From positions 1 through 42,571 of the forward strand of contig CANJNZ010000039.1 in the NCBI GenBank assembly GCA_947476045.1: a DNA stretch of 42,571 bases, in the 5' to 3' direction. This DNA comes from Chthoniobacteraceae bacterium. Lineage in GTDB: Bacteria; Verrucomicrobiota; Verrucomicrobiia; Chthoniobacterales; Chthoniobacteraceae. Shown one piece after another: positions 13,257 to 37,577 of this stretch. The number at the start of each line of letters is the position of its first letter. Within the stretch, counting starts at the first letter, position 1. The notes beneath the pieces are model-generated. The model made no database searches. It was not told where the DNA came from and saw nothing but the letters and a program-made list of their open reading frames with translations. The position numbers were made by a program, and so were the translations under genes.

Positions 13257-16200
13257 TTACTGCTTTTTGGATTTCTCGGCGATGACCCGGTAGTAGGTCT
13301 CCACGGCCTCGCGATACTCTTCGGAGATTGGCAGGGAAATTCCTTTATTGATGTCTTCCGCCAATTTCGGCGGCAGCTTGCCCCATCCACCTTTTTTCAA
13401 TTCGGCGAGTTCGGGCACGGCTCCTTGCGATTGAGGAGCACCGTCGAGCTTGGAACCTTTTTCGGATTCCTCTTTTGGCATAAATGGGCCTGGCATTCCG
13501 GGCATGAGCGCCGGCTTGGATGAGCGGCTTTGGCGCATGGCAGCCATGGCTGATTGAGCCATTGCTGACATCGGTCCTGGAGGTCCATCTCCGGGCGGTC
13601 CCTGCCCCGGAGGGCCTTGTCCGGGTGGCCCCTGTCCTGGCGGGCCCTGTCCTGGCGGGCCCTGTCCGGGCGGCCCTTCGCCGGGCGGGCTTTGTGCAGC
13701 AGCGGCAGCGGCTGCAGCGGCGGCGGCGGCTTCACTGAGTTGCTGATCCAGTGCATCCAGCGCCTTTGCAAATTCCTGCTGCTCCGCAGATGTCGCATCC
13801 GAAGGCATTCCTTCTGCACTTTCACCCGGCTTGCCGCCTTTGCCCGGTTTTCCACCTTTGCCCTCTTGTTCGCCGGGTGGTGGTGAGTCCTTGGCCTCCT
13901 GCGCGGATTTTTTGAGCGCATCCACTTCCTCTGCTAATTCCGTCGCTGCCTTTTGCACCGGCGCTTGAGCTTCCGCTGCCTGCTTGGATTCACGAATCGC
14001 CTTCTCCGCTGCTGGCACGCTCTTTTTTGCCGTCTCGTCGATTTGCTTGGCTACGCTCCCGAGGCTTTCCGAAACGTCGGACTTTCCGAGACGCTCCGCG
14101 TGACGAGCGGCACGAGCCACATCGGCTGCTGCCTCCGACGCATCGGCCTGCACTGGAGCCTGCTCGATCGCTGCCTGCGCCAGAGCGGAATTCTTCGGCG
14201 CACCCTCTGCAATTTTCGCCATCGCCTGCGCTCGCTCAATGGCGTCGCGAGCGGCTGCATCAACCTGCTGAGCAGCTTCGATTGCGAGGCTGGATTTCTC
14301 CGCAGAAAGAGTCCCCTGCTCGACGGCTGAAATATTATCGGCCTGCTTGTCGCCGCCCTTTTGCGCTTCGGTTTTTGAGTTTTCTGCAAGCGCCTTGGAT
14401 TCATTCCGAGCCTGGTCTGAAGGCTGGACCACCGGCGGAACTTTTTGAATCACTGCATTGGCTTCGAGAACAATGTCCTCGGTCTTGCGGCTTTCATCAA
14501 GACGGCGGGCGGCCTCGACAAGTTGATCTGCCGTGAGAACAGCAGCGGATGTTTTTTCGACGGCCACACGGGCGCGATCCATCGCCGGCTTGTTAGCAGC
14601 CTGCTCCACGAATTGGCGGGCACTAGCCGCTGCTGTCTGTGCATCCCTTGCAGAGGCCGCAGCGAGCTTGGCTGCTTCGAGTGCACTGAGTTGACGCTTT
14701 GGATCTTTGTCCCGCGCCATGCGTTCGTTTACTTTTCCAGCCGCCAAAGCCTCGGCTTTCGCAGCGCGGATGAGTTCTTCCAGACCGATGATTGCCGTCT
14801 CTTTGCTAATCTCATCCAGCTTCTGCGCCATCTCAGGGTTCGTTGGCAGCTTTGCCTCCAGTTCCTTCAGCAAATCCTCGGGACTCTTCGCGTCCATCTC
14901 CGCAATCATTTCCGCTTTCGCGAAATCCTTGTCGAGTTGGTCTTTGATTCCCAAATCATCCTCCGCCTTACGCAGCGCGGCCCGGGTATCTTCGGGTTTC
15001 TTTCCCTGCTCCAGCGCTTCGTAGTGACCGCCGATGAGAAACAACGCCTCCACGATTTTCTGCTCATTCTCCACGGCCCGATCCAAGTCGGTCTGCTGCT
15101 GCGTTGCGTCCGCTCCCTGCGTCACATCCTGTAAAGCCTGCACTGTGGCTGGCGGTGGATCTTTGAGCATCGCCAGTGCGTCATCCGCATCGCGCATCCG
15201 CTCACGCTGATCTTTTTTCAAGATGCTCTGCTCGTTGGCGTCGGCGCGGATGAGATCCTTGAGTGTATCAATCTTGCCGTTGATATTCTGCTGTCGCGAA
15301 AGCTGCGGAAGAACCTCGTTCTTATTCTCCTCGGGTTTGGTCGTGGTAGCCTTGCTTGCGGATTGGTTGGAATCCTTCTTCAACAATGCCTCCTCCTTCG
15401 CAAGCGCGAGCGCAAGTTCGCTGATGCTCGGCGTGAGCTTGAGTAAATTTTTCCGCGCGGCATCCATCGGGCCGCGCAAAACTGCAAGCGATGCCCTCAG
15501 CTTGCCGGCAACCTGTTCCAGTTCAACTCGCGCCACTCCCGGCGTGTGTTTGGATTTCCGGCGCTCGCCCATTTCAAAAGTCAGCGCTCGAAACGGCGCG
15601 CTCGCGGGAATTTCCGCCAACATCACTGAAGCAGCCTCCACGGCTTTGCGTGCTTCTGGGTCCTTCAATGCAAGCTGTTTGAACTGGCCGGGTGCCATCT
15701 GCAGGCGGGTCGAAAGCCACGCCCAATCACGGGGCATCGTCGTGCGTGCGTGAGGCATCCGCACTTCCCATCGATCCAATGCCACGAGTGCAGCGATGCC
15801 CTCGATGAGTTCCTGCAAATTGTGTCCGGCTTCCAGAATCTGCATGCTTTGCTCCAATACATCCAGCCGGGCGGCGGTCTTCTCCGGGCCATCTCCCGCA
15901 GCGAGCGCAAATATCGTCGGCGAAGCCACGCTGGCCCGGCGCAGGTCGCCCACAAAGGAATTGTCGGCCCTGGCACGCACTTCCTCGAGGTCAGCATGCG
16001 CTTTGAAAATATCGCCCAGCGCATTCCATCGGCCCTCGATCAATGCCGCGCGATCCTGCCCGAGCTGACTCCAATTTGTAATTCCAGCCGTGAGATCATG
16101 GCGCAGCTTTTCCACACAACTCCATGTGGGTTCCAATTCCTCGACAAAATACTGGTGCATACTTCCCGCCATCAAAAGCGGTGTCTCCAAACCGCCGGCT

Positions 16201-18590
16201 GGCACCTTCCCGTGGGCGATAATGGTTTCCTGCGCCAGCTTCGAAAGTTTTACACGGGAGTTCACTGTGTCTCCAACGAGTTTGCCGAAGTTACGCGTGA
16301 AACTTTCAAACACCCCCATTAGCGATTCATCAGGCACACCCGCGCTGATCTCCTCCTGCATCTTGTCACGTGTCCACGCCAAAAAATTGCTGTTCAGAAG
16401 ATCCTCGGCGTTTTTGGAAGATGGACCTCCACCCGCTTTAACTGTCGTCAACACAGCATCCATATTTTTAGTGACGTTCAGGAGCGTATGCAGCCGCGTT
16501 GCTACCCTGCCCCAATCCTCGGGAGTTTTACTGACGTTCGCCATGTCACGGATGCGGCGTTGCTCATAGGAAAGCAGCCCGCCGAGTTCAGACACCACAT
16601 CGAGTTGCTCTGCGGTGAGATTGAAGGCGTAAGTTTCACGCGCCAGTTCCGTCATGGTTTTAGAACGCGCAGCCTGCACATGTATCTCTGCGGCGAGTTC
16701 ACGAGCGCCCGGCGTATTCGGCTGGGCGTTGAGAATCGTCAGAACTTTTCCGGCGGCCTGCACCTCTCCGCTGTTGATACGGCTCAAAAGCCGCCCGAGC
16801 AGCACGAGATCAGAACCTTCGTGATTTGCCGCCACCTCACGGAGCGGAACGTCCACCGCCGACCATGCCTGCGCGAGCTTCGCTTCGAAATCCGTGAAAG
16901 CTGTGGCGCATGCCGCAACCGCCTGCTTGCGCGCTGTGTCCGCACCCTCGGTTTGATCAAACTTCAAGCGCATCGCATAGGCTGCGCTTTCAAAAGTTTC
17001 CGATGATGCCGCCAGCGCCTTCACTACTCCTCCGAGCGCGTTCCGGCTAGCCAACGCTGCAAGTCGCTGCATCTCCGTCGCCGCTGCCACGATGACGATT
17101 TGAATTTTTCTCGACTCCGTTTGTCCGCCTTTGAAATCCGTGACAAGGAGCTTTGTTGTGATGAGGTCATTTGTCTTCACACCTTCTCCCGCGAGATCCC
17201 ATTCGCGTTCGATTTGCGTGTTCAGTCCTGCATTTTCCTTGAGCACGGCCTCCTTCCACAGACCGTCATTCACACGCACCATCTGCACGATTCGAGCGAG
17301 ACCCACATCGTCACTCGCAATGCCCGACAGTTTCACGACTTCGTTCGCTGGAGCGACCATGTCTTCCGTCGGCGATAAAATCTCAACGGCCGGGATAAGA
17401 TCTGGCACAGCGCGGATTTCATATTCAGGACTGAACTTGTTCTCGAAATCCGTCTTCGCAGCCACGAGATGGACGCGGTAGGTGCCTGAGCCACTCAGCG
17501 TGATGCGCGCACTCAGTCGCCCATCCGGCAACTGCGTTAATGGAATCTCCGTCTTCTCCTTGCCGCGATCCACTCGCAGCGTGGCGTTTTTCACCGCCTG
17601 ATTCGTCTTTATTTTCAACTCCACCGCGGCGCCTTCCAACCCCGTAAGATTGCCCTGCTCTTCCTTCACGAATTTGTCTGGAAATTTGCTGTAGGGCGGA
17701 AAGTGATAAGTCTTTTCAAACTCCACCTCGTGCGGCCTCGCCACCGCCGTAAGCTGGTAATATCTCGTCCTCCCATCCCCCGCCTGCATCCGGTAACTCA
17801 CATTCTCGCGTCCCACTTGGATGCTCGTGCTGAAGCGATTACCGGCCAGCGCCTTCATCTCCGAAACACGGCGACCCTCCCCTTCGCTGATCGTTTCAAT
17901 CTGCGCTCGCTCCGCTGGCAGTCCGCTCACTTCGATGATCACCTGCACCGCATCGCCGTGCGCCACCATCGCATCGCCCGACGCAGGCGCCACCACTCGC
18001 AACTGCGTGCCCGCCACATTCTCCAGATTCGCACCAGGCATCAGCGCCCGCAGAAACAATGTCTTAAACCGATTCTGGCTCACCAGCATCAGCGCGATCA
18101 CTGCCACGCCAAACACCATCGTTATCCCGATGTAGCGCTTGATCAACGCCACCGGCAGCAGCGTCTTCACCTCCAGACTCTCCATCCGCGAAGACACATC
18201 CGTCTGCAAAAGCCCGCGAAATTGATCCGAATCAAACACATCCCCCTTCGCACGGCCCAACTCCACCGCCGACAACAAATCCTCCCGCAACTTCGGCTCC
18301 GCGTGTTCCACCAGCCGCGCTATCTGCCGCTCGTTCGGCGCATTCAATAGCTGCTTCAAGCACTGCCGCCACGCCATCACCACCACCAACGTGTAGGCCA
18401 CCGCGCTCAACGTCCACCTCACCCAGTCGGGCATCAGCGGAAACCAGTAGTCCACACCGGCAACCACTATCATCGTCCCCACCAACATCGCCACCGCCGC
18501 AAATACCCCTCGCACCATTATCAAACTCCGACGCCGACGCGCAAACGCCTGAAGTTTTTGCAAAATCAGCGGATCAAGGCCGGCACTCAT
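13257..18590 (-). CDS. Giant DUF4175-like membrane protein, copy 1 (1777 aa, GPPGQ repeat)
   Basis: Third in transcription order of three tandem paralogs. The cytosolic N-terminus MSAGLDPLILQKLQAF is followed by hydrophobic helices at about 26-46, 56-75 and 153-171. Beyond helix 3 the chain is probably periplasmic: Ig-like beta segments (about 190-510; QVGRENVSYRMQAGDGRTRY), then a very long helical part (about 520-1600). This includes the block LIRADANEQSILKKDQRERM (about 1109-1130) shared by all three copies. The C-terminal zone contains an alanine run (about 1620-1633), a GPPGQ pentapeptide repeat (about 1634-1674), and the common end GGWGKLPPKLAEDINKG...YYRVIAEKSKK. ATG 18590 is chosen because the three copies align from MSAGLDP; the TTG at 18635 is upstream noise. 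The N-terminal layout matches DUF4175, whose function is unknown. Confidence 0.85.
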   Translation of the reverse strand: MSAGLDPLILQKLQAFARRRRSLIMVRGVFAAVAMLVGTMIVVAGVDYWFPLMPDWVRWTLSAVAYTLVVVMAWRQCLKQLLNAPNERQIARLVEHAEPKLREDLLSAVELGRAKGDVFDSDQFRGLLQTDVSSRMESLEVKTLLPVALIKRYIGITMVFGVAVIALMLVSQNRFKTLFLRALMPGANLENVAGTQLRVVAPASGDAMVAHGDAVQVIIEVSGLPAERAQIETISEGEGRRVSEMKALAGNRFSTSIQVGRENVSYRMQAGDGRTRYYQLTAVARPHEVEFEKTYHFPPYSKFPDKFVKEEQGNLTGLEGAAVELKIKTNQAVKNATLRVDRGKEKTEIPLTQLPDGRLSARITLSGSGTYRVHLVAAKTDFENKFSPEYEIRAVPDLIPAVEILSPTEDMVAPANEVVKLSGIASDDVGLARIVQMVRVNDGLWKEAVLKENAGLNTQIEREWDLAGEGVKTNDLITTKLLVTDFKGGQTESRKIQIVIVAAATEMQRLAALASRNALGGVVKALAASSETFESAAYAMRLKFDQTEGADTARKQAVAACATAFTDFEAKLAQAWSAVDVPLREVAANHEGSDLVLLGRLLSRINSGEVQAAGKVLTILNAQPNTPGARELAAEIHVQAARSKTMTELARETYAFNLTAEQLDVVSELGGLLSYEQRRIRDMANVSKTPEDWGRVATRLHTLLNVTKNMDAVLTTVKAGGGPSSKNAEDLLNSNFLAWTRDKMQEEISAGVPDESLMGVFESFTRNFGKLVGDTVNSRVKLSKLAQETIIAHGKVPAGGLETPLLMAGSMHQYFVEELEPTWSCVEKLRHDLTAGITNWSQLGQDRAALIEGRWNALGDIFKAHADLEEVRARADNSFVGDLRRASVASPTIFALAAGDGPEKTAARLDVLEQSMQILEAGHNLQELIEGIAALVALDRWEVRMPHARTTMPRDWAWLSTRLQMAPGQFKQLALKDPEARKAVEAASVMLAEIPASAPFRALTFEMGERRKSKHTPGVARVELEQVAGKLRASLAVLRGPMDAARKNLLKLTPSISELALALAKEEALLKKDSNQSASKATTTKPEENKNEVLPQLSRQQNINGKIDTLKDLIRADANEQSILKKDQRERMRDADDALAMLKDPPPATVQALQDVTQGADATQQQTDLDRAVENEQKIVEALFLIGGHYEALEQGKKPEDTRAALRKAEDDLGIKDQLDKDFAKAEMIAEMDAKSPEDLLKELEAKLPTNPEMAQKLDEISKETAIIGLEELIRAAKAEALAAGKVNERMARDKDPKRQLSALEAAKLAAASARDAQTAAASARQFVEQAANKPAMDRARVAVEKTSAAVLTADQLVEAARRLDESRKTEDIVLEANAVIQKVPPVVQPSDQARNESKALAENSKTEAQKGGDKQADNISAVEQGTLSAEKSSLAIEAAQQVDAAARDAIERAQAMAKIAEGAPKNSALAQAAIEQAPVQADASEAAADVARAARHAERLGKSDVSESLGSVAKQIDETAKKSVPAAEKAIRESKQAAEAQAPVQKAATELAEEVDALKKSAQEAKDSPPPGEQEGKGGKPGKGGKPGESAEGMPSDATSAEQQEFAKALDALDQQLSEAAAAAAAAAAAAQSPPGEGPPGQGPPGQGPPGQGPPGQGPPGQGPPGDGPPGPMSAMAQSAMAAMRQSRSSKPALMPGMPGPFMPKEESEKGSKLDGAPQSQGAVPELAELKKGGWGKLPPKLAEDINKGISLPISEEYREAVETYYRVIAEKSKKQ
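13565..13690 (-). repeat. GPPGQ pentapeptide-coding minisatellite in giant gene 1
   Basis: A 15-bp unit encoding Gly-Pro-Pro-Gly-Gln is repeated about five times, flanked by GPPGE and GPPGD variants, followed by PGPMSAMAQ. The period is five residues, so unlike the tracts in copies 2 and 3 it does not keep glycine at every third position. It directly follows an uninterrupted run of about 12 alanines. Confidence 0.85.
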
Positions 18591-18778: not shown

Positions 18779-21700
18779 TTACGGCTTCTTGGATTTTTCG
18801 GCAATGACACGGTAGTAGGTTTCCACGGCTTCGCGATACTCATCAGCGATCGGCTGGGAAATTCCTTTGTTGATGTCTTCCGCCAACTTCGGCGGCAGTT
18901 TGCCCCATCCTCCCTTTTTCAAATCGGCCAGTTCAGGCACGGCTCCAGATGGCCCGCCCGTAGGTGAACCTGCTCCGCCTTTTGACTCTGCCATCTGACT
19001 CATCTTTGGCGGCATTCCTGTAAATGAACCGGGCACGGGCGGAGTGTTCGCGAGACGAGCTTGCGCGATCGCGGCTTGGGCCATGGCTGCCATCGGACTT
19101 GGCGGTCCAGGCGGTCCCGGAGGCGCAGGCGGTCCGGGTGGTCCGGGCGGTCCGGGTGGTCCGGGTGGTCCGGGTGGTCCGGGCGGTCCGGGCGGTCCGG
19201 GTGGTCCGGGTGGTCCGGGTGGTCCGGGTGGTCCGGGTGGTCCGGGCGGTCCGGGCGGTCCGGGTGGTCCGGGTGGTCCGGGCGGTCCGGGCGGTCCGGG
19301 TGGTGCCGGAGGTCCGGGCGGTCCGGGTGGTCCGGGTGGTCCGGGCGGTGCAGGTGGTCCGGGTGGCGCTGCTGAGTCAAGAGGTGCTGCCGGACTGCTC
19401 TGCGCAAGTTGTCCAGCATCGGCAGCCGGAGGTGCATTCAGTTGAGAATCAAGTAAGTCCAGCAAGCGCGCTAAGGCCACTTGCTCAGCAGGCGTGGATG
19501 TTGACTCAGCAGGAGACTGCGCATCCGGCGGCTGAGCGTCGGGCGACTGAGCTTCTGGTGATTGCGCGTCGGGCGGCGCTCCGGGTTCGCCGGGCTTTGG
19601 CGGGCCACCTGCGCCTGGCTTTGGAGGACCGCCTGCCCCCGGCTTCGGCGGACCACCCGCTCCTTCTTTTGGAGCGCCATCTTTGGGTTCTCCATCCTTG
19701 GCTTCCCCATCTTTTGATTCACCGTCTTTTGGCTCACCGCTCTTCGGTTCGCCACTCTCTGGTTCACCGCTCTTTGGTTCACCGCTCTTTGGTTCACCGC
19801 TCTTTGGTTCACCACTCTTTGGTTCGCCGCTCTTTGGTTCGCCGCTCTTTGGTTCACCGCTCTTCGGTTCACTAGATTGTGCAGGTGCTTCTTGCGCCTT
19901 GGTCGATTCTTGTTGCTCGATGGCTTTAGTAAGTTCTTCCGCGTTCTTGGCGAGTTCATCGTTCGCCTTTTGCACTGGAGCCTGAGCCTCTTGAGCTGTT
20001 TTTGCATTTTGCAAGGCTTGCTCTGCGGCAGGCACGTCTTGCTTGGCCGTGTTCTCGATTTTCTCAGCAAGCTCCTCCAGCTTTTTAGCGGCATTTGGAT
20101 TCTCCAATCTTTCTTCGTGACGCGCCGCACGTTCCACATCTGCCGCTGCCTCCTTGGCAAGTTCCTCCACGGGCTTTTGATCGAGCGCGGCCTGCGCCAG
20201 CTTGGGGTTCTGCGGCGATCCATCGGGATTCTTAGCGACGGCTTGCGCAATCTCAGCGGCCGACTTCGCGGCAGCCACAATATCCTTCACAGCTTCGATG
20301 GTTGCCGCTGCTTTTTGGGACGCGAGCTTCGCCTGCTCTTGCGCCTGCTCATTCGGGGCCTGCTGCGGTCCACCTTTTTGCGCTTCGTTTTTTGCCTGTG
20401 CCGCCGCTTGGTTCGCCTGATTTAAGGCCTTTTGTGCTTCCGCTGCGATATTTTGCGCTTTTTCAATCACTGCTTTTGACTCCTTCAGCGCCTCCTCGGG
20501 ATTGCTTGCGCTCTCCAATTTCTTTGCAGCCTCCACGGTCGCGTCAGCGGCAGCCACGGCGGCCTTTGCTTTTTCAGCCGCTGCATCTGCCTTTTCCTGC
20601 GCGGGTTTATTCGCGGCCTGCTCGGCCAAAACTGCGGCCTTTTCCGCCTCAGCCACTATTTCCCGCGCGAGTGCTGCAGCGAGTTGTGCCGCTTCGATTG
20701 TGGAAGGCTGCTGCTTTCCCGCCTGCTCCTTTGCGGCTTGCTCGTTTACTTTTTTTGCAGCGTCAGCCTCACTCTTTGCGGCTGCTTTAAGTTTGTCCTT
20801 CGCCTCCGCCAGCGTGTCTTTTGAAATGGCGCTCAACTCCTTTTGCATCTCTGGATTCGCAGGCAGTTTCGCGACCAGTTCCTTCAGGAGTTCTGCGGAA
20901 GTTTTTTCCGCCATTGCCGCCAGTTCCTCAGCCTTGGCATACTGCGCATCCAACTCCTTTTTGTTCTCCAGTTCCGTTTCCTTGCTGCGCAATTCCTCGC
21001 GGGTCGCGGAAACATCACGGCCCTGTTCAAGAGCGGCGTAGTGCCCGGCGATCATGTTTAAAACATCCACGATTTTCTGTTCGTGCTGCACCGCGCTATC
21101 GAGATCGGCTTTTTGCTCATCCACGCGCTCGCCCTGGGTGACTTCGAGCAATGACTGCGCGGCTTTCGGCGGCGGATCGCGAAGGAGTGCAACCGCATCA
21201 TCCGCATCTCGCATGCGCTCACGCTGATCCTTTTTCAATACACTGCGCTCGTTCGCATCGGCCCGAATCAAATCCTTGAGCGTATCAATGCGACCATTGA
21301 TCCACAACTGTCGCGCCAGTTGTGGCTGCGCCTCCGTCTTGTTCGTATCGAGCCGGGCTGCCGCCGCTTTCCCGGCATGAGCCAACGAGACGAGCTTCAG
21401 TTCGGCCTCCTCCTTGGCCAAAGCGAGCGCAAGTTCGCTAATCGTTGGAGTCAGCGCGCTTAAATTACTTCGCGCGGATATCATCGACCTGCTCAAGAGC
21501 GCGAGGGCAGCGCGCACTTTGCTTGTGACCGCATCCACCTCCCCCCGCACACTCGACGGCGGGCGATCCAGTTTACGACGCACGCCCATTTCAGCCACAA
21601 CTGCAAGGCTGGGTTCGCTGGAAAGTATCCCTTCTATTTGCGCCGCCGCGGCTTCAAATGCAGTGCGCGCTTCTTTGTCTTTCAAAGCCAAATCTCGGAA

Positions 21701-24619
21701 ATCCCCGGACACGGTCTGTAATCTTGAATGCAGCCACGCCCAATCGCGTGGCGCTACCGTCCGCGCCTGCGGTGCTCGCAACTCCCAGCGCTCGATTGCG
21801 CTGAGGGCGACGAGACCCTCCACAATTTCCTGCAAACTATGCCCCCCCTCCAAAACCCGCAGGCTCTGGCTTATTACATCTACGCGCGCAGTCGTTTTTT
21901 CCGGACCGTCTGAGCGGGCAAGTGTCTGCACGGATTGCAGCGCCACCGTCGCCCGGCGCAAGTCGGCGACAAAAGCGCTGTCGGGCATTGCACGAATCTC
22001 CTCGAAGTCGCCCTGTGCCTTGAAAACTTCCGCTCTCGACGCCCACGATGTATCGAGCAAAGCCGCGCGCTGCTCCGGAGTCAGCTTCTCCATTTTTTCA
22101 AAAGCAGTCTGCTCCACTAGTAGCGCATCCAGGCACTCCCAGACCGTGCTCAACTGTTCGGTCAAGGCATCGTGTGTGCCGGCGACTTGTTGGGCGAGAT
22201 TCGCTGCCACGGATTTCGGGTTGGGACGTCTCGGAGCAACTGTCCCCTTCTGCGACTTGGTGGTGATGGCCTGCCCGGCGAGTTGTTGCTTGATGTCAAA
22301 TGCCTCGGCGGCCTTGTTCACCGTTCCTTTCGCGTAAGCATCAATAAACTGCTTTAGCTTCACTTTCGTATCCCCGGCATCCAACTCATGACTGAGTCTG
22401 TCGCTCTCACGTCCGAAACTGAGTTGCATTCTTTGAGCCAGAACTCCCGTGGGGCCGCCTCGAATTTTAATCGCCTCCAGCACCGAATCCACATTTTGCC
22501 TGACACTCAGCACAGTGCGCAGACGAGTTAGCACCTTCCCCCACTCCTCGGGTGTATTGGCCGCAATGGACAAAGTTCGAATACGTTCCTGCTCGGCTGT
22601 CACCACGATACAAAGTTCGGCAACGACATCAATCTCCTCGGCGCAGATATTCAAGCTGTATGCCTCATGCGCAAGACGCGTCAGCACCGTCAGGCGGTCC
22701 GCGCTCTCGTTGGCAAGTCGCATGAGTTCGCGCGCTCCGACCTGAGAAGGCTTGGCTTCCACGATTCTAATAATTCTCCTCAGCGGCTGCGCTTCTCCGC
22801 TGTGTGTGAGACTCAGCAAGCGCGCGAGTAAAATCAGGTCGGCGCTTTCGTGATTCGGCGGGGCATCACGGAGCGGATCATTGATTGCGCCCCATGCTGC
22901 TGCGAGTTTCGTATCGTAGCTGTATAAAGCTTCCGCCAGTTTAGCCAGCACCCGCACACGCTCGACATCGCCCTCCTCGGTTTGATCGAATTTCAGCCGC
23001 GCAGACTTTGCTGCTTCGTCGAGCGCGACTCCCTCGGCAGCGAGTGCTTTCACATTTGCATAAAGCATCTGCCTGCTTTTCAGCGCGGAGAGACGCTTCA
23101 TGTCGAAGCCTGCGGCGGCGACTGTGATTTGCAACGCGCGCGACTCGGCTTTGCTTCCTTTCAAATCCGTGACGACCAGCTTCGTGATCATGAGGTCGCC
23201 CGCTTTCACGCCCTCCGCCGCAAGATCCCAATCGCGCATCACGCGCACCTCGCGGCCCGAGTCCTTGAAGAGCACGGTCTCCTTCCATCCACCATCGTTC
23301 ACCTTCACCAACTGCACGACTTTCGCGATGCCTACATCATCACTGGCGCGAGCGTTAAGTTTAACAATTTCATCCGAGCGCGAGATAAGATCCAGCTTGG
23401 GCTCCTGTATTTCAATCGTTGGAACAAGATCCGGCGAAGAGCGCAATTCGTATTCAGGGCTGAACCTGTTTTCAAATCCCGTATCAGCCGCCACGAGATG
23501 CACACGATAGGTGCCTGATCCGCTGAGCGCTATCCGCGCACTTAACCGGCCATCCGGCAACTGCACCAACGGAATCTCCGTCATTGTCTTGCCTCGATCC
23601 ACCCGCAACGCGCCAGTTTTCACCGCCTGATTGGTTTTGATTTTTAGCTCCACCTCCGCGCCTTCCAGCCCGGCAAGATTGCCATGCGCTTCCTTTACGA
23701 TTTTGTCCGGCTGCTTCGCGTAGGGCGGAAAATGATAGGTCTTTTCGAAGTCAACCTCTTGCGGCCTTGCGACCGCTGTGAGTAGGAAATACTTGGTCCG
23801 ACCGTCCCCTGCTTGCATCCGGTAGGTCACGTTTTCGCGGCCGACCTGAATCGTCGTAGTAAAGCGATTATTCGGCAGGGGCATCATGTCCGAAACACGA
23901 CGACCTTCCGTGACAGTCATCGTTTCCACTTTCGCGCTTTTTGCGATCTCCCCTTTTAATTCCACGACTACGCGCACTGCATCGCCATAGGCTACCTTCG
24001 CATCGCCGGATACTGGCTCTATGACCCTTATCTGCGTGCTCGCCACATTCTCCAGATTCGCGCCGGGCAGCAGCGCGCGCAGCAGCAGCGTCCTGAAACG
24101 ATTTTGGCTCAATACCATCAACCCGAGCACCGCCAATGCGATCACCGCTGCGATGCTGATGTAGCGTTTAATCAGCGCCAGCGGCAGCAGCGACTTCACC
24201 TCCATGCTCTCCATGCGCGAAGAAACATCCGACTGCAGAAGTCCGCGAAATTGCTCCGAATCAAACACACCGCCCTCGCTGCGGCCCAACTCCACCGCAG
24301 ACAGCAAATCCTCCCGCAACTTCGGCTCCGCGTGCTCCACCAATCGCGCAATCTGTCTCTCGTTTGGTTCATTCAAGAGCTGGCGCAAACACTGCCTCCA
24401 CGCAATCACGAGCACTGCGAGATATGCCAGCCCGCTCAATACCCATCGGACCCAGTCGGGCATCAGCGGAAAAAGGTAATCCAACGCTGCCACCACGACC
24501 ATCGTGATAAACAGCATCGCCACCGCCGCGAAAACACCACGCACGATAATCAGACTCCGCCGCCGCCGCGCGAACGCATGTAGTTTTTGCAAAATGCGAG
24601 GATCAAGACCGGCACTCAT
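18779..24619 (-). CDS. Giant DUF4175-like membrane protein, copy 2 (1946 aa, collagen-like GPP tract)
   Basis: Longest of the three paralogs. It has the same N-terminal anchor (MSAGLDPRILQKLHAF; helices at about 26-46, 56-75, 153-171) and periplasmic Ig-like region (QVGRENVTYRMQAGDGRTKY). A long helical/coiled-coil part follows (about 520-1580), with the shared block LIRADANERSVLKKDQRERM near 1110-1130 and many Ala/Lys/Glu heptad-like stretches. The C-terminal zone differs: SGEPK repeats (about 1582-1635), (GGPPKPGA) repeats, a short Gln/Ser/Pro region, then about 30 Pro-Gly-Pro triplets (about 1751-1840) and the conserved last 50 residues ending YYRVIAEKSKKP. A strict Gly every third residue is the hallmark of collagen triple helices, so trimerisation is plausible though unproven. 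It starts at ATG 24619, 144 bp after copy 3. Confidence 0.86.
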   Translation of the reverse strand: MSAGLDPRILQKLHAFARRRRSLIIVRGVFAAVAMLFITMVVVAALDYLFPLMPDWVRWVLSGLAYLAVLVIAWRQCLRQLLNEPNERQIARLVEHAEPKLREDLLSAVELGRSEGGVFDSEQFRGLLQSDVSSRMESMEVKSLLPLALIKRYISIAAVIALAVLGLMVLSQNRFRTLLLRALLPGANLENVASTQIRVIEPVSGDAKVAYGDAVRVVVELKGEIAKSAKVETMTVTEGRRVSDMMPLPNNRFTTTIQVGRENVTYRMQAGDGRTKYFLLTAVARPQEVDFEKTYHFPPYAKQPDKIVKEAHGNLAGLEGAEVELKIKTNQAVKTGALRVDRGKTMTEIPLVQLPDGRLSARIALSGSGTYRVHLVAADTGFENRFSPEYELRSSPDLVPTIEIQEPKLDLISRSDEIVKLNARASDDVGIAKVVQLVKVNDGGWKETVLFKDSGREVRVMRDWDLAAEGVKAGDLMITKLVVTDLKGSKAESRALQITVAAAGFDMKRLSALKSRQMLYANVKALAAEGVALDEAAKSARLKFDQTEEGDVERVRVLAKLAEALYSYDTKLAAAWGAINDPLRDAPPNHESADLILLARLLSLTHSGEAQPLRRIIRIVEAKPSQVGARELMRLANESADRLTVLTRLAHEAYSLNICAEEIDVVAELCIVVTAEQERIRTLSIAANTPEEWGKVLTRLRTVLSVRQNVDSVLEAIKIRGGPTGVLAQRMQLSFGRESDRLSHELDAGDTKVKLKQFIDAYAKGTVNKAAEAFDIKQQLAGQAITTKSQKGTVAPRRPNPKSVAANLAQQVAGTHDALTEQLSTVWECLDALLVEQTAFEKMEKLTPEQRAALLDTSWASRAEVFKAQGDFEEIRAMPDSAFVADLRRATVALQSVQTLARSDGPEKTTARVDVISQSLRVLEGGHSLQEIVEGLVALSAIERWELRAPQARTVAPRDWAWLHSRLQTVSGDFRDLALKDKEARTAFEAAAAQIEGILSSEPSLAVVAEMGVRRKLDRPPSSVRGEVDAVTSKVRAALALLSRSMISARSNLSALTPTISELALALAKEEAELKLVSLAHAGKAAAARLDTNKTEAQPQLARQLWINGRIDTLKDLIRADANERSVLKKDQRERMRDADDAVALLRDPPPKAAQSLLEVTQGERVDEQKADLDSAVQHEQKIVDVLNMIAGHYAALEQGRDVSATREELRSKETELENKKELDAQYAKAEELAAMAEKTSAELLKELVAKLPANPEMQKELSAISKDTLAEAKDKLKAAAKSEADAAKKVNEQAAKEQAGKQQPSTIEAAQLAAALAREIVAEAEKAAVLAEQAANKPAQEKADAAAEKAKAAVAAADATVEAAKKLESASNPEEALKESKAVIEKAQNIAAEAQKALNQANQAAAQAKNEAQKGGPQQAPNEQAQEQAKLASQKAAATIEAVKDIVAAAKSAAEIAQAVAKNPDGSPQNPKLAQAALDQKPVEELAKEAAADVERAARHEERLENPNAAKKLEELAEKIENTAKQDVPAAEQALQNAKTAQEAQAPVQKANDELAKNAEELTKAIEQQESTKAQEAPAQSSEPKSGEPKSGEPKSGEPKSGEPKSGEPKSGEPKSGEPESGEPKSGEPKDGESKDGEAKDGEPKDGAPKEGAGGPPKPGAGGPPKPGAGGPPKPGEPGAPPDAQSPEAQSPDAQPPDAQSPAESTSTPAEQVALARLLDLLDSQLNAPPAADAGQLAQSSPAAPLDSAAPPGPPAPPGPPGPPGPPGPPAPPGPPGPPGPPGPPGPPGPPGPPGPPGPPGPPGPPGPPGPPGPPGPPGPPGPPGPPGPPAPPGPPGPPSPMAAMAQAAIAQARLANTPPVPGSFTGMPPKMSQMAESKGGAGSPTGGPSGAVPELADLKKGGWGKLPPKLAEDINKGISQPIADEYREAVETYYRVIAEKSKKP
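19101..19370 (-). repeat. Collagen-like Gly-Pro-Pro minisatellite, 30 units of 9 bp, in giant gene 2
   Basis: The 270-bp tract is exactly 30 nonamers. On the coding strand nearly all units are GGA-CCR-CCC or GGA-CCR-CCG, so glycine is almost always GGA and variation is mostly at synonymous third positions. A few units have Ala instead of Gly (plus-strand GCA, GCC or GCT near both ends). The uniform codon choice suggests recent expansion of a single unit by slippage or unequal crossover. Confidence 0.92.
19715..19875 (-). repeat. SGEPK pentapeptide-coding 15-bp tandem repeat in giant gene 2
   Basis: About nine units of a 15-bp repeat (plus strand GGTTCACCGCTCTTT and close variants) encode Ser-Gly-Glu-Pro-Lys, followed by degenerate units (DGESK, DGEAK, DGEPK, DGAPK). 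This gives a highly charged, alternating acidic/basic linker before the Pro/Gly zone. Confidence 0.9.
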
Positions 24620-24763: not shown

Positions 24764-27700
24764 TTAAGGCTTTTTGGATTTCTCCGCGATCACTCGATAG
24801 TAGGTCTCGACTGCTTCGCGATACTCTTCAGCAACTGGCTGCGAGAGCCCTTTGTTGATATCTTCCGCGAGTTTCGGTGGCAGCTTGCCCCAACCACCTT
24901 TTTTTAATTCGGCCAGTTCAGGCACGGCTCCGGAAGGTCCACCCGTAGGTGAACCTGCCCCGCCTTTTGACTCTGCCATCTGACTCATCTTTGGCGGCAT
25001 TCCTGTGAATGGCCCGGGCATGGGTGGAGTGCGCGCAAGACGAGCTTGCGCCATCGCAGCTTGTGCCATCGCAGCCATTGGACTTGGTGGTCCGGGCGGT
25101 CCCGGTGGTCCCGGTGGTCCCGGTGGTCCGGGTGGTCCGGGTGGTCCGGGCGGTCCGGGTGGTCCGGGCGGTCCGGGCGGTCCGGGCGGTCCGGGTGGTC
25201 CGGGCGGTCCGGGTGGTCCGGGTGGTCCGGGTGGTCCGGGTGGTCCGGGTGGTCCGGGTGGTCCGGGTGGTCCGGGCGGTCCGGGTGGTCCGGGAGGTCC
25301 GGGTGGTGCCGGAGGTCCGGGCGGCATAGGTGCGGCAGGAGTTGCAGGCGAAGTTGGTGGGGCATTCTGTGCTAGTGCCGGAGCTGCCTGCGCCTTGATT
25401 TGCTCAGCAAGCGCATCAAGCGCACGCGCCATTTGCTTTTGCTGTGCAGAGCTTGGCGGTGGCGGCGCACTTGGGCTGCCGGGTTTCGGAGGGCCGCCTG
25501 CACCTGGCTTAGGAGGACCGCCTCCGGGTTTCGGTGGGCCACCACCTGGTTTCGGCGGACCGCCGCCTGGTTTGCCGCCTTTCCCTTCTTTTGGAGGGCC
25601 ACCTTTGCCATCTTTCGGAGGACCACCCTTACCATCTTTTGGCGGACCACCTTTGGCGTCCTTAGGTGGGCCACCTTTGCTATCTTTCGGCGGGCCGCCT
25701 TTGGAATCCTTTGGATCGGATGGTTTCGGCGGTTGAGTAGCGGCCTTTAAAGCTTCGGCGTTTTTCGCGAGTTCCTTGTTCGCCTGATCGACGGGAGCCT
25801 TAGCATCCTCGGCCTTCTTGGCCTGTTGCAACGCCTGATCCGCTTTCGGGACATCCTGCTTGGCTGTCTTGTCGATCTGCGCTGCGAGTTCTTTCAGCTT
25901 CTCGCTGTTTGCCTGGTTCTCCAGCCGCTTCTGGTGATCGGCGGCGCGATCCACGTCCTTGGCCGCGTCCTTGGCGTTTTGCTCGATAGGTTTCTGGTCG
26001 TTCATGACCATCGCCATGTTGCGGTTCTCCGGCGGTTTCTCGGGCAGCTTCGCCAGCGCCTGCGCCTGCTCGGCAAACAAACGCGCAGCTGCCTCCGCTT
26101 GTTGCGCGGCCTGAATGGCCTCACGACCTTTTTTCTCAGCTAGCGTCGTCTGCGCAAGCACTTGCTGGAAAATAGGCTGCTGCGCACCGGCTTTGGCAGC
26201 TTCCGGTCGTGCGTGCTCCGCAGCAACTGCCATGAGATTACGCGCCTGATCTTCCGGCCCGATAAACGCGTTTACCTTGGTGCTAAAAGTCTGCGCTTCC
26301 TTCAACACATCTTCCAGCTTTTTGGCTGTCTCCAGCCGCTGCGCCGCCTCCACGAGGAGATCTACAAATGGCACCGCAGCAGCACCCTTATCGACAGCCA
26401 GCTTCGCGCTGGTGATCTCCGCTGCAATCGCTGTCTGATCGGTAGCCTCCTTGTTGGCATCCATCGCAACCTTGGCTTCGCGAGCAAGTGCTGCCGCAAG
26501 TCGCGCCGCCTCCAGCGGTGTGAGCTTGGCTCTCGTATCCTTTTCCTTGTTCGCAAGATCATTGACCTTGTTCAGCACCTCTGCCTGCTTCGCCTTGGCC
26601 TTGTCGATTTTGTCCTTAGCAGTCTCCAGCGAATTATCGGCGATATCCTTGAGTTCCTCACGCATCTTGTCGTTCGCGTCCTCGGTGAGTTTCTTCTCCA
26701 AATCCTTGAGCTGATCCTCGGCTGATTTTTCCGAAATTTCCGCGAGCTCGCTGGCATTTTTCTCCCGATCATCGAGATCTTCTTTAATTCCCAAGTCCGC
26801 CTCCCGCTTCAGCAATTCATCGCGTGTCTTTGAAACATCCTTCCCCTGCTCCAGTGCTGTGTAATGCGCCGCAATCAGATTCAGTGCATCCACAATTTTC
26901 TGTTCCTGATCGATGGCGCTATCGAGATCGGTTTTCTGCTGCGTCGCCAGTTCGCTCTCGGTTGCTTTGCGCAATTCCTCGGCAGCTCGCGGCGGGGGCT
27001 CTTTGAGCATCGCGAGCATGTCATCGGCATCGCGCATCCGATCACGACCGTCTTTTTTCAACATGTTCTGCTCATTCGCCTCGGCGCGGATGAGATCCTT
27101 GAGAGACTCGATGCGAAGATTAATCGCCTGCTGACGCGCAAGCTGAGGCAGCGCCTCGATTTTGTTATCCTCAGGTTTTGCATCAACCGCCTTGGCAGAG
27201 TGCCCGGTGGTCACCATTTTAAGTTCGGCTTCCTCTTTCGCAATGCTGAGGGCCATGTCGCTAATTTTTGGCGTAAGATTCGCGAGACTTTTCCGCGCTT
27301 CCTCGACGGGTTTTTGCAGCATCGCGAGCGCAGTCTTCAGTTTTGCAGACACCGCTTCCACGTCACCCCTCATGCTTTCTGGCGGACGTGCGAGATTTTT
27401 TCTGGCCGCCATTTCCTTGCTGAGTGCATCGAGCGAAGGCGTGCCCGGGATGCCGCCCATATAGGAAACCAAATCGCTAACCGCTGCTGCTGCCGCCTCG
27501 TTTTTGAGACCTAGACGGTTGAGTTGTGCTGGCATCATGTAGATACGCGTAAGAACCCACCCCCAGTCGCGCGGCGCCGAAGTCCGGGCCTGAGGTGCAC
27601 GCACTTCCCAACGCTCGATGTTGTTCAGAGCAGCGAGCCCGTCCACAAGCTCTTGTAAATTATGCGCGACCTCCAGGAGACGCAGGCTTTGATCGAGTTC

Positions 27701-30427
27701 ATCAAGTCGGGCTGCGGTTTTTTCCGGACCTTCGCTGGTGGAAAGAGTATGAGTGTATTGCAAAGCAACGGTTGCGCGACGCAGGTCAGCAACGTAGCCG
27801 TTGTCGGCAACTGCACGCACTTCTTCGAAATCCCCGCTCGCTTTTAAAACATCTGCCTGCGCCGCCCATCGCGCATGAATCAACGAAGCGCGGTCCTCGG
27901 CGGAGAGTTTTTCCATTTTCTCCAGCGTGGCCTGCTCATCAATCAGGCGACTGATACATCCAGAAATTGGGCCGAGCGCGTCCATGAGATAGCGATGGGT
28001 GCCTGCCGTAAGCTCCGGATCCTGAATGAGTCTGTCGTAGCCGCGCGGTGAAAGAATCTGCGCGGCACTCGCGAGATGAATTCGCTCATCAATACCATTG
28101 CCCTGAGTAATGCCGGTGACATGCGCATGAATGGCGTCCCGGATTTCCTTCAACTGCTGCTGCGTGTTGATTTTTGTAAGTTCGGCAAGTTTAGTTTCCA
28201 GATTCTCGCGCTCCCCGATGAAAAAGCCGCCGTTCAACCGGTCCCCGATTTCAGCCCTCGGCCCGCCGCCCGCTTTGATCGCAAGCATGATACTGTCAAA
28301 ACTCTTCGTCAGATTGAGCACGGTGCGGAGACGTGTTGCCAGACGCGCGAATTCTTCCTCCGTAGTGCTGATGGGAATGATCTGGCCGATGCGATCCAAT
28401 TCCTCGCGCAGGAACAATCCGAGTTCGGCGATGCTGTCGATCTGCTCGGCGCATACATTGATGCGGCAGGCATTGAGCGCCTGTGTGGTGAGTGTGGTCA
28501 GGCGCGCAGTGGCTTCGTGGATATTCCGCATGAGCTCGCGCTGCCCAGTTGCGGTGGGATTAGAAACGAGGATTTCAAAGGCTCTCCGGATGTGCTGCGC
28601 CTCGCCGCTATGAATGCGCGCAAGAGCGCGTCCGAGTAAAACGAGGTCGCTGCTTTCATGATTTGCAGGAGCATCGTGGAGCGGCGCATGGATTGCGGTC
28701 CAAGCCTGAACGAGCTTTGCATCGTAGGCTGCGTAGGCCGTGGCCACGGCAGTCAACATCTGCTTGCGCGCCGGATCTCCCTCCTCGGACTGATCAAATT
28801 TAAAACGGGCGAGACGGCACGCTTCGCCCAGAGCCGTGCCTGCGGCACCGAGGCCTTTCACTGCCTCGAGAAGCGCTTTGCGGCTCTCCAGCATCGTGAG
28901 TCGCTTGATGTCAAAACCCTCCGCGACGACCATAATCTGTAAAGCACGCGTCTCGGCTTTGCCGCCCTTGAGGTCGGTGACGATCAGCTTCGTCGTAATC
29001 ATATCCGCCGCCTTCACGCCCTCCGTGGAAAGATCCCAGTCACGCTCCACGCGCACCTTTTCCCCGCCTTCGTGCTTCATCTCCAATTCCTTCCATGGAC
29101 CGTCATTGATTTTTAATACCTGCACGACTTTGGCGATGCCGATGTCGTCGCTGGCATTGACGATGAGCTTCACAAGTTCGTTCGATGGGGAAACCATATC
29201 TTTCTGCGGTTCCTCAAAATCAATCGTGGGAAGCAGATCAGGCACAGAACGTAGTTCGTATTCCGGGCTGAACTTGTTTTCGAATTCAGTCTTCGCCGCA
29301 ATCAGATGGACCCGATAGCTTCCAGAGCTGCTTAGCGCGATGCGCGCGCTCAACCGCCCGTCCGGCAACTGCACCAGAGGAATCTCCTTCATCGCCTTCC
29401 CTTGGTCCACTCGCAGCGAACCGCTCTTCACAGGCTGATTCGCCGTGATCTTTAGTTCCACTTCCGTCCCCTCCCAAGCAGTCAGATTGCCCTGCTCTTC
29501 CTTCGCGACCTTGTCAGGAAATTTCGTGTAGGCTGGGTAGTGATAGATCTTTTCGAAAGCCACTTCGTGGGGTCGCGCTACAGCCGTGATCTCGTAGTAT
29601 TTTGTGCGTCCGTCCCCGGCTTGCATTCGATACCGCACGTTTTCACGCCCGACCTGAATCGTCGTGGTGAAGCGATTATTCGGCAGCGGCATCATGTCTG
29701 AAATACGACGCCCCTCCAATTCGCTCAGCGTCTCCACTTTCGCGCTTTTGGTGATCTCCCCTCGTAGTTCAACCACCACACGCACAGCGTCACCATGTGC
29801 CACCATTTGATCGCCATTGGCAGGCTCGACGAGGACAAGCTGTGTGCTCGAAACATTTTCAAAGTTTCCCCCGGGCATCAGCGCTCGAAGCAACAACGTC
29901 TTGAAGCGAAACCCGCTAAGCACCATGAGCACGAGCACCGCCGCTGCGATGACGACTGCCACGCTGATGTAGCGTTTGATCAGCGCCACCGGCAGCAGTG
30001 ATTTGATTTCCAGACTCTCCATCCGCGAGGAAACATCCGTCTGCAACAGGCCGCGGAATTGCTCTGAATCAAGCACGCCTCCCTCGGTCTGGCCCAGTTC
30101 GACGGCTGAAAGCAAATCCTCGCGCAACTTCGGCTCGGCGTGTTCCACCAATCGTGCAATCTGACGCTCGTTCGGTTCATGCAGGAGTTGGCGTAGACAC
30201 TGCCTCCATGCAATAAAGAGCACCGCTGAATATGCGCCAATGCTAAGCACCCACCGCAGCCAATCCGCCATCAATGGAATGAAGTAATCCAGCGCAGCCA
30301 CCACGATCATCGTGGCAAACAACATCGCCACTGCCGCGAAAACACCGCGCACAATAATAAGACTTCGACGACGACGCGCAAACGCCTGAAGCTTTTGTAA
30401 AATCAGAGGATCAAGGCCAGCGCTCAT
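24764..30427 (-). CDS. Giant DUF4175-like membrane protein, copy 3 (1887 aa, collagen-like GPP tract)
   Basis: First of the three giants in transcription order. It has the same plan: cytosolic start MSAGLDPLILQKLQAF, helices at about 26-46, 56-75 and 153-171, Ig-like segments (QVGRENVRYRMQAGDGRTKY), a long helical region with the shared block LIRAEANEQNMLKKDGRDRM (about 1106-1126), and Lys/Ala/Glu coiled-coil stretches. The C-terminal zone has GGPPKDxK heptapeptide repeats (about 1569-1625), GGGPPKP repeats, an Ala/Gln stretch, about 26 Gly-Pro-Pro triplets (about 1700-1780) and the conserved end YYRVIAEKSKKP. In the Ig-like region it is closer to copy 2 than to copy 1 (both share MMPLPNNRFTTTIQVGRENV). 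ATG 30427 is chosen by alignment with the other copies. It lies 135 bp downstream of the cyclase-fold gene. Confidence 0.86.
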   Translation of the reverse strand: MSAGLDPLILQKLQAFARRRRSLIIVRGVFAAVAMLFATMIVVAALDYFIPLMADWLRWVLSIGAYSAVLFIAWRQCLRQLLHEPNERQIARLVEHAEPKLREDLLSAVELGQTEGGVLDSEQFRGLLQTDVSSRMESLEIKSLLPVALIKRYISVAVVIAAAVLVLMVLSGFRFKTLLLRALMPGGNFENVSSTQLVLVEPANGDQMVAHGDAVRVVVELRGEITKSAKVETLSELEGRRISDMMPLPNNRFTTTIQVGRENVRYRMQAGDGRTKYYEITAVARPHEVAFEKIYHYPAYTKFPDKVAKEEQGNLTAWEGTEVELKITANQPVKSGSLRVDQGKAMKEIPLVQLPDGRLSARIALSSSGSYRVHLIAAKTEFENKFSPEYELRSVPDLLPTIDFEEPQKDMVSPSNELVKLIVNASDDIGIAKVVQVLKINDGPWKELEMKHEGGEKVRVERDWDLSTEGVKAADMITTKLIVTDLKGGKAETRALQIMVVAEGFDIKRLTMLESRKALLEAVKGLGAAGTALGEACRLARFKFDQSEEGDPARKQMLTAVATAYAAYDAKLVQAWTAIHAPLHDAPANHESSDLVLLGRALARIHSGEAQHIRRAFEILVSNPTATGQRELMRNIHEATARLTTLTTQALNACRINVCAEQIDSIAELGLFLREELDRIGQIIPISTTEEEFARLATRLRTVLNLTKSFDSIMLAIKAGGGPRAEIGDRLNGGFFIGERENLETKLAELTKINTQQQLKEIRDAIHAHVTGITQGNGIDERIHLASAAQILSPRGYDRLIQDPELTAGTHRYLMDALGPISGCISRLIDEQATLEKMEKLSAEDRASLIHARWAAQADVLKASGDFEEVRAVADNGYVADLRRATVALQYTHTLSTSEGPEKTAARLDELDQSLRLLEVAHNLQELVDGLAALNNIERWEVRAPQARTSAPRDWGWVLTRIYMMPAQLNRLGLKNEAAAAAVSDLVSYMGGIPGTPSLDALSKEMAARKNLARPPESMRGDVEAVSAKLKTALAMLQKPVEEARKSLANLTPKISDMALSIAKEEAELKMVTTGHSAKAVDAKPEDNKIEALPQLARQQAINLRIESLKDLIRAEANEQNMLKKDGRDRMRDADDMLAMLKEPPPRAAEELRKATESELATQQKTDLDSAIDQEQKIVDALNLIAAHYTALEQGKDVSKTRDELLKREADLGIKEDLDDREKNASELAEISEKSAEDQLKDLEKKLTEDANDKMREELKDIADNSLETAKDKIDKAKAKQAEVLNKVNDLANKEKDTRAKLTPLEAARLAAALAREAKVAMDANKEATDQTAIAAEITSAKLAVDKGAAAVPFVDLLVEAAQRLETAKKLEDVLKEAQTFSTKVNAFIGPEDQARNLMAVAAEHARPEAAKAGAQQPIFQQVLAQTTLAEKKGREAIQAAQQAEAAARLFAEQAQALAKLPEKPPENRNMAMVMNDQKPIEQNAKDAAKDVDRAADHQKRLENQANSEKLKELAAQIDKTAKQDVPKADQALQQAKKAEDAKAPVDQANKELAKNAEALKAATQPPKPSDPKDSKGGPPKDSKGGPPKDAKGGPPKDGKGGPPKDGKGGPPKEGKGGKPGGGPPKPGGGPPKPGGGPPKPGAGGPPKPGSPSAPPPPSSAQQKQMARALDALAEQIKAQAAPALAQNAPPTSPATPAAPMPPGPPAPPGPPGPPGPPGPPGPPGPPGPPGPPGPPGPPGPPGPPGPPGPPGPPGPPGPPGPPGPPGPPGPPGPPGPPGPPSPMAAMAQAAMAQARLARTPPMPGPFTGMPPKMSQMAESKGGAGSPTGGPSGAVPELAELKKGGWGKLPPKLAEDINKGLSQPVAEEYREAVETYYRVIAEKSKKP
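25086..25328 (-). repeat. Collagen-like Gly-Pro-Pro minisatellite, about 26 units of 9 bp, in giant gene 3
   Basis: Some 26 consecutive nonamers (25086-25319) encode Gly-Pro-Pro with glycine as GGA throughout and Pro codons varying only at the third base. One Ala interruption lies near the 5' end of the coding tract, and a last degenerate unit (25320-25328) encodes Met-Pro-Pro. Unit sequence is the same as in giant gene 2. Confidence 0.92.
25480..25710 (-). repeat. GGPPKDxK and GGGPPKP tandem repeats in giant gene 3
   Basis: About six units of a 21-bp repeat encode Gly-Gly-Pro-Pro-Lys-Asp/Glu-x-Lys-type heptads (x = Ser, Ala or Gly), followed by four units of a Gly-Pro-Pro-Lys-Pro-Gly-Gly type. 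The result is a strongly basic, Pro/Gly-rich linker that corresponds in position to the SGEPK repeat of copy 2. Confidence 0.85.
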
Positions 30428-31640: not shown

Positions 31641-31694
31641 TTAGGATTTCTCCGCTATGATGCGGTAGTTGGTCTCGACTGATTCACGATAGTT
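31641..31694 (-). pseudogene. Remnant of the 3' end of a fourth giant gene
   Basis: The minus strand here encodes NYRESVETNYRIIAEKS followed by TAA. This matches the conserved C-terminus of the giants (EYREAVETYYRVIAEKSKK). At DNA level about 40 of 49 bases match giant gene 3 without gaps. The fragment has no start or upstream domain: it begins one base inside the stop codon of the upstream vWA gene and in another frame. It is therefore a relic of a deleted or rearranged fourth copy. Confidence 0.8.
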
Positions 31695-36654: not shown

Positions 36655-37556
36655 GCCTTGCCAAGCCTCCGTGTCATGTAGGCAGCGAGTGCCTTAGAAT
36701 ACGACTCATCGGTGCACATCGGCACGAGGTCGATGTGATGCCTGCGGCAACCTTTTACCAATTCGTCACGAAATACACCGAGGTTCTCCATATAAGCCTG
36801 ACGGAGCATCACAGGATCGAGGAGATGCTTCACGCCTGCCTGCTCAAGGCAGTCAAACTGCGTCCAGCCCTTGAAAGGAAACTCCAACTCATCGCGATCC
36901 CAAATTTGGAATACGATGATCTCATGCTTGGCATGGCGGAAATGCGCCATTGCCTTGAGGAATTTCGCGACCTCACCGAAGCAATCAGAAATGATGATCA
37001 GGAGGCCACGACGATGCAGTTTAGGGACAAGGTTATGAAAAACTTCACCCATTTCAGTTTCGCCGCCTGGCTTGCCCTTTTCCAACTCATCAATGATGAG
37101 GCGAAGATGGCTTACCTTCGAACGTGGCGGGATATAACGGCGAATGTCCGTATCGAATGTCGCCAATCCTACGCCGTCGGCCTGATGCACCATCAAGTAT
37201 GAAAGGCACGCAGCGAGCCGGGTTGCGTATTCGTATTTGGTGACGCCCCCTGTTTTGCTGCCTGCGTAGTTCATCGAACCGCTACGATCCAGGACGATCG
37301 TCGAGCGAAGATTGGTTTCCTCCTCGTATTCGCGGATATAGTAGCGATCGCTGCGTGCGAAAACACGCCAGTCAATATGCCGGATTTCATCGCCCGGCAC
37401 ATACTGCCGGTGCTGTTTGAATTCCACGCTGTAGCCTTTGTGAGGCGAGCGGTGCAAACCTGTGGTAAAACCCTCCACGATCTGCCGTGCAAAGACCTGC
37501 AGGCTTGAAATCCGCTGCAGGTCGGACGGTTCGAGAAAGTCCGAGACGTGGGCCAT
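36651..37556 (-). CDS. DUF58 domain protein (MoxR-associated, vWA-like)
   Basis: The 301-residue cytosolic protein has the DUF58 signature (YVPGDEIRHIDWRVFARSD, residues 52-70) directly followed by a vWA-like fold with metal-binding motif D90-R-S92-G-S94 (IVLDRSGSM). The later segment RRGLLIIISDCFGEV is the second half of the Rossmann-like core. DUF58 genes almost always lie next to moxR, as here (21 bp downstream of it), and the product is thought to be a MoxR partner. The gene overlaps the following BatA gene by four bases. All expected parts are present and no truncation is seen. Confidence 0.93.
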   Translation of the reverse strand: MAHVSDFLEPSDLQRISSLQVFARQIVEGFTTGLHRSPHKGYSVEFKQHRQYVPGDEIRHIDWRVFARSDRYYIREYEEETNLRSTIVLDRSGSMNYAGSKTGGVTKYEYATRLAACLSYLMVHQADGVGLATFDTDIRRYIPPRSKVSHLRLIIDELEKGKPGGETEMGEVFHNLVPKLHRRGLLIIISDCFGEVAKFLKAMAHFRHAKHEIIVFQIWDRDELEFPFKGWTQFDCLEQAGVKHLLDPVMLRQAYMENLGVFRDELVKGCRRHHIDLVPMCTDESYSKALAAYMTRRLGKA

Positions 37557-37577
37557 TCGAGTTTTGAGGTCTCGAAA

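Follow-up and report, generated by a model that had tools for sequence, protein, structure and literature searches.

We found that P1, a giant membrane-anchored protein encoded in the window (the whole analysed stretch of 42,571 nucleotides), carries an in-frame, near-pure Gly-Pro-Pro tract ahead of a conserved C-terminal domain (Table 1). The comparison of homologs indicates that this tract is a rare lineage-specific form of a spacer slot, which is filled by other low-complexity sequence in almost all relatives. We favor the explanation that the tract is a lineage-specific stiff polyproline-II spacer to the C-terminal domain, and we give this reading about an even chance of being right.

Table 1. 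Features of P1, its tandem paralogs, and the neighboring genes (positions in the window)
Feature	Positions	Strand	Remark
P1, giant membrane-anchored DUF4175-like protein	18779..24619	minus	1946 aa; bears the tract
(GPP/APP)30 tract of P1	19100..19369	minus	26 GPP + 4 APP; PF01391 over cutoff
Uninterrupted (GPP)19 core of the P1 tract	19127..19297	minus	Gly codon always GGA
C-terminal region of P1 beyond the tract	18782..19099	minus	includes conserved WG.LP...YR...YY domain
GGPPKPGA repeats in P1	19588..19657	minus	
Charged period-5 repeats (SGEPK)n	19713..19872	minus	ahead of the tract
Ig-like beta domains of P1	23117..24034	minus	residues 196-501; structure model; Foldseek
Predicted transmembrane helix 3	24107..24163	minus	residues 153-171; hydropathy + structure model
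Predicted transmembrane helix 2	24398..24454	minus	residues 56-74; hydropathy + structure model
Predicted transmembrane helix 1	24482..24538	minus	residues 28-46; hydropathy + structure model
P2, tandem paralog	24764..30427	minus	upstream of P1 in transcription direction
(GPP)26 tract of P2	25085..25318	minus	one Ala; 24 uninterrupted
P3, tandem paralog	13257..18590	minus	downstream of P1; period-5 GPPGQ tract in place of GPP
Period-5 (PPGQG)n tract of P3	13574..13690	minus	same slot as the P1 tract
MoxR AAA ATPase, DUF58, BatA-like vWA, and vWA/GATase-like genes	31694..38615	minus	operon-like cluster with the giant genes

The preliminary description of this DNA had announced about 30 Gly-Pro-Pro units with strict glycine. 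There are indeed 30 triplets in frame within the P1 ORF, but glycine is not strict, as four of them are APP and the longest unbroken Gly-X-Y run is 19. The interruptions sit close to the tract ends. Shuffling of the complete protein, its linker, or the tract alone (3000 times each) gave a maximum run of 7-9; the tract is real and far beyond chance. A comparable tract in the paralog P2 had been overlooked. Both proteins have a long stretch with glycine in each third place, by which bacterial collagen-like proteins are recognized (19 unbroken triplets in P1 and 24 in P2), and the Pfam collagen model (PF01391) exceeded its cutoff on both. Two different in-frame arrays on a single contig, along with a third from a different genome, argue against an assembly artefact as the origin of the tract; its exact length and those of the other arrays are uncertain should the assemblies have been built from short reads. 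The sole further PF01391 match in the genome is a secreted-looking protein of 556 aa on contig C1 (L016:2081-3751), which has a classical charged collagen-like region (GPKGDKGDKGDPG...).

The N-terminus of P1 is positively charged, and hydropathy predicted three membrane helices. The structure model of residues 1-560 is of moderate confidence (mean pLDDT 66; best beta part >80) and includes these helices, then beta sandwiches at residues 196-501, and then helical structure. In the Foldseek comparison, the beta part fell among Ig-like arrays, namely those of titin, fibronectin, and bacterial adhesins. The earlier picture of a giant membrane-anchored host, with charged repeats ahead of the tract and a conserved C-terminal domain beyond it, was borne out. 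Since the N-terminus would lie inside and is followed by three helices, the rest of the protein should be periplasmic; on the basis of hydropathy and this model, the tract is predicted to lie in the periplasm, beyond the three membrane helices, the Ig-like domains, and an extended helical stretch. The placement in the periplasm or envelope suggested earlier is thus a prediction from topology. The structure prediction of the C-terminal part (pLDDT 54) was too poor for use. The C-terminal domain had no convincing match among PDB sequences, the C-terminal DNA had no match in the phage database, and no trimerization domain was recognized.

The proposed relation to DUF4175 (PF13779) proved marginal. 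In the genome search the summed score was 27.5 bits against a cutoff of 27.3, whereas the N-terminal piece of P1 alone scored 26.9, and full-length P1 had no DUF4175 match in the Pfam (at E 1) and NCBIfam scans. Like DUF4175 proteins, P1 has N-terminal membrane helices and then a domain with a marginal match to PF13779 positions about 187-394. However, this match does not extend to the long helical part, the spacer, or the C-terminal domain. In the same genome, a 565-aa relative of the giant N-terminal half (contig C12, L017:5809-7506) is over the DUF4175 cutoff and includes neither the spacer nor the C-terminal domain.

To read the spacer slot in other genomes, we used the region preceding the conserved C-terminal domain in 44 homolog loci from genomes of the same family and phylum and from one Phycisphaeraceae MAG. 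A GPP tract was found in only one locus, the P1 ortholog of a MAG named Prosthecobacter debontii. In the remaining 43 loci, the longest Gly-X-Y run was at most 6, and the slot was Gln-, Ala-, Gly-, or Pro-rich (GQGQP in the Phycisphaeraceae homolog). The conserved C-terminal domain was retained across the homologs despite the differing spacers. The search for Gly-X-Y tracts in related genomes, which had been recommended earlier, therefore yielded one other locus and does not make collagen a feature of the family. The same locus overturns the idea of a tract restricted to this genome. In the Prosthecobacter MAG, one contig ends within a P1-like gene, inside a tract that shows at least 23 unbroken GPP triplets. 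Another contig opens with 12 GPP triplets; a P1-like C-terminus comes next, and behind it lies a P3-like gene that has GPPGE/GPPGM repeats. According to the tree, the GPP tract is common to the P1 orthologs of the two species and the period-5 tract to their P3 orthologs. The closest P1 ortholog (L049) and 42 further homolog loci are without the collagen region, and the absence in L049 could reflect either a loss there or separate gains of the tract. L049 comes from a genome (G021) assigned to another genus, while most same-genus genomes hold more distant copies; its placement possibly results from horizontal transfer or bin contamination. Within the window genome, it had been overlooked that P3 and a fourth paralog on another contig (P4) are without the collagen register. 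P4 (L015:6810-12929, contig C35) has a Gly/Pro-rich stretch and a very long (GEKPAA)n array, and its orthologs were found in two same-genus genomes.

The repeat unit in the window genome is GGACCRCCC, and the Gly codon is GGA in 26 of 26 cases in P1 and 25 of 25 in P2. In the second species, the unit is GGTCCTCCC or GGTCCTCCG, and the residues are still GPP. Over the arrays of P1, P2, and the second species together with its fragment, third codon positions hold 55 of the 63 unit-to-unit base differences (21 expected); the units were copied from each other and are not independent, so that the nominal p-value of this excess is too small. The count covers the whole tract, because a comparison of the core, in which all differences are synonymous, is true by construction when the core is defined as GPP. 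These data suggest that the arrays turn over as DNA with the encoded residues kept, and the direction toward constraint at the protein level is clear in these few sequences, with the tract carried by two species. Furthermore, the six replaced triplets all lose Gly (four Ala and two Ser), and none loses Pro. In this small sample, such Gly-only replacement would suit a PP rod better than collagen and is opposite to what selection for collagen should leave.

In addition, the relationship of P1 to P2 changes along the protein. Up to residue about 1775, P1 is nearer to its ortholog L049 than to P2. From residues about 1775-1778 to 1895, P1 and P2 agree at 93-98% of protein positions and 88-92% of DNA positions, whereas the protein identity of P1 to L049 is 54-63%. 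The two genes use the same codon at 70-75% of positions in the shared C-terminal stretch versus 41-56% elsewhere, and P2 groups with P3 in the tree of the middle region and with P1 in the C-terminal tree. The tract and the adjoining C-terminus were apparently copied between the tandem genes by gene conversion. The direction from P1 to P2 is more likely, because the P1 ortholog of the second species also has GPP.

Our explanation starts from what was observed, namely the sequence, its slot, the homolog survey, the codon turnover, and the recombination signal. We propose that the three N-terminal helices would hold the protein in the inner membrane, with the Ig-like domains and the long helical region in the periplasm, and that the low-complexity spacer would let the small conserved C-terminal domain reach a partner far away. 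In the P1 line (the window species and the Prosthecobacter MAG), the spacer may have turned into (GPP)n. We infer that it acts there as a single chain in the periplasm, namely as a stiff rod in polyproline-II form, which at full extension would measure ~26-28 nm (arithmetic from textbook rises per residue). The array would have been lengthened and homogenized by DNA recombination, with the encoded residues kept, and gene conversion would have copied it between P1 and P2. The different repeats that occupy this slot elsewhere agree with a spacer (GPPGQ in P3, GPPGE/GPPGM in the P3 ortholog of the second genome, and GQGQP in Phycisphaeraceae). We favor the stiff spacer because a conserved anchor, a conserved end domain, and a freely exchanged spacer resemble TonB/TolA. 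On the other hand, the glycine of the retained (GPP)n recurs regularly, as a triple helix would need, whereas a generic spacer could do without it.

This counterpoint leads to the collagen triple helix, in which three chains, all of P1 or a mixture of P1 and P2, would join via GPP in the periplasm and the rod would trimerize the giant proteins. A triple helix is physically plausible from the sequence. (Gly-Pro-Pro)10 trimerizes without hydroxyproline, with a Tm of about 27 C (PMC7824840), and thus 19-24 unbroken triplets gathered on a membrane could well trimerize. The unbroken runs in P1, P2, and the second species are all longer than this peptide and should be more stable. The PF01391 matches, the position of the interruptions close to the tract ends, and the tracts of P1 and P2 kept matched by gene conversion are also consistent with it. 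However, with one exception the homologs outside this genome are without the collagen register, the tandem P3 has period 5, no trimerization domain was recognized, and Gly, which is indispensable in collagen, is the sole residue replaced. On balance, we regard the triple helix as possible but somewhat doubtful. The fuller version, that real periplasmic collagen triple helices trimerize giant DUF4175-like envelope proteins and that gene conversion matches the P1 and P2 chains for mixed trimers, seems to us quite unlikely.

The tract could also be a GC-rich slippage array that is nearly neutral and serves no specific function; a disordered linker would tolerate such an array as long as the reading frame is intact. 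It is a pure array at the DNA level with a single Gly codon, the other repeats of the same proteins are likewise tandem arrays, and L049 lost the tract or never had one. Nevertheless, the third-position excess, the recurrence of GPP with different codons in the P1 ortholog of another species, and the period held by each paralog line (3 in P1 and 5 in P3) make this origin highly unlikely. Another view is that the Pro-Pro-Gly motifs (26 in P1 and 25 in P2) impose slow, EF-P-dependent translation late in a giant membrane protein. The genome does have an EF-P gene, but EF-P is near universal and its presence says little. In addition, the tract is near the C-terminus and is translated when most of the chain has been made, long after the membrane helices, and the homologs have few or no PPG motifs. 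We consider translation pausing hardly credible as an explanation.

Compared with known systems, the layout with a stiff spacer resembles that of TonB/TolA, whose spacers alternate between helical and proline-rich forms among lineages (PMC12204202). P1 shares with them the inner-membrane anchor, a low-complexity spacer that would cross the periplasm, and a small conserved C-terminal domain. However, P1 is far larger, has Ig-like domains, and has a MoxR/DUF58/vWA neighborhood rather than ExbB/ExbD or TolQ/TolR, and no partner genes of the ExbB/D or TolQ/R type were recognized among the inspected ORFs of the window; the likeness is one without shown homology. Collagen-like domains on bacterial membrane proteins are already known. 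Bucl8 of Burkholderia, a trimeric outer-membrane protein and efflux component, has about 20 GAS triplets in varying number and an experimentally shown extracellular triple helix (PMC7682875). Like Bucl8 and other PF01391 proteins, P1 has a homogeneous Gly-X-Y array of similar length on a membrane protein. Unlike Bucl8, whose helix is demonstrated, the P1 tract is predicted to be periplasmic and is a candidate for trimerization. The preliminary description had stressed that the tract is outside a classical surface adhesin; for a collagen domain on a membrane protein other than a classical adhesin, Bucl8 is a precedent. Our search of the accessible literature, the coverage of which is incomplete, gave no report of a near-pure GPP tract in any DUF4175-like protein encoded in a MoxR/DUF58/vWA cluster.

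In this family, one and the same slot holds near-pure collagen sequence in one line, whereas other lines have period-5 or Gln-rich repeats there, and it offers a natural case for asking what a GPP rod contributes beyond a generic linker. It is also an example of DNA arrays that appear to turn over and to be copied between neighboring genes with the protein repeat unchanged. If the tract does trimerize, collagen folding would take place inside a bacterial envelope protein and not on the cell surface.

The three tandem paralogs are in the order P2, P1, P3, with P1 in the middle and all on the minus strand. Ahead of them lie genes for an ECF-type sigma factor, a small membrane protein, MoxR ATPase, DUF58, BatA-like, vWA/GATase-like, and squalene-cyclase-like proteins. 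The small membrane-protein gene had no Pfam match and could encode the anti-sigma factor for this sigma factor. As in MoxR-DUF58-vWA (Bat-like) clusters, the MoxR ATPase, DUF58, BatA-like, and vWA genes are directly upstream, and several relatives have a similar gene order around the giant gene. The giant protein, in three tandem copies in the window, is an added component by which this cluster differs. Between the vWA and squalene-cyclase-like genes, we found a relic (NYRESVETNYRIIAEKS-stop, 31641-31695, minus strand) that matches the end of the giant C-terminal domain. An original giant-gene copy seems to have been lost at this site, because several relatives carry the giant gene directly after the vWA gene. 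In the Prosthecobacter MAG, the P1-P3 pair (L126 and L137) is without adjoining MoxR/DUF58/vWA genes, and hydrolase, sulfatase, and Hsp90-like genes lie upstream of the P1-like gene.
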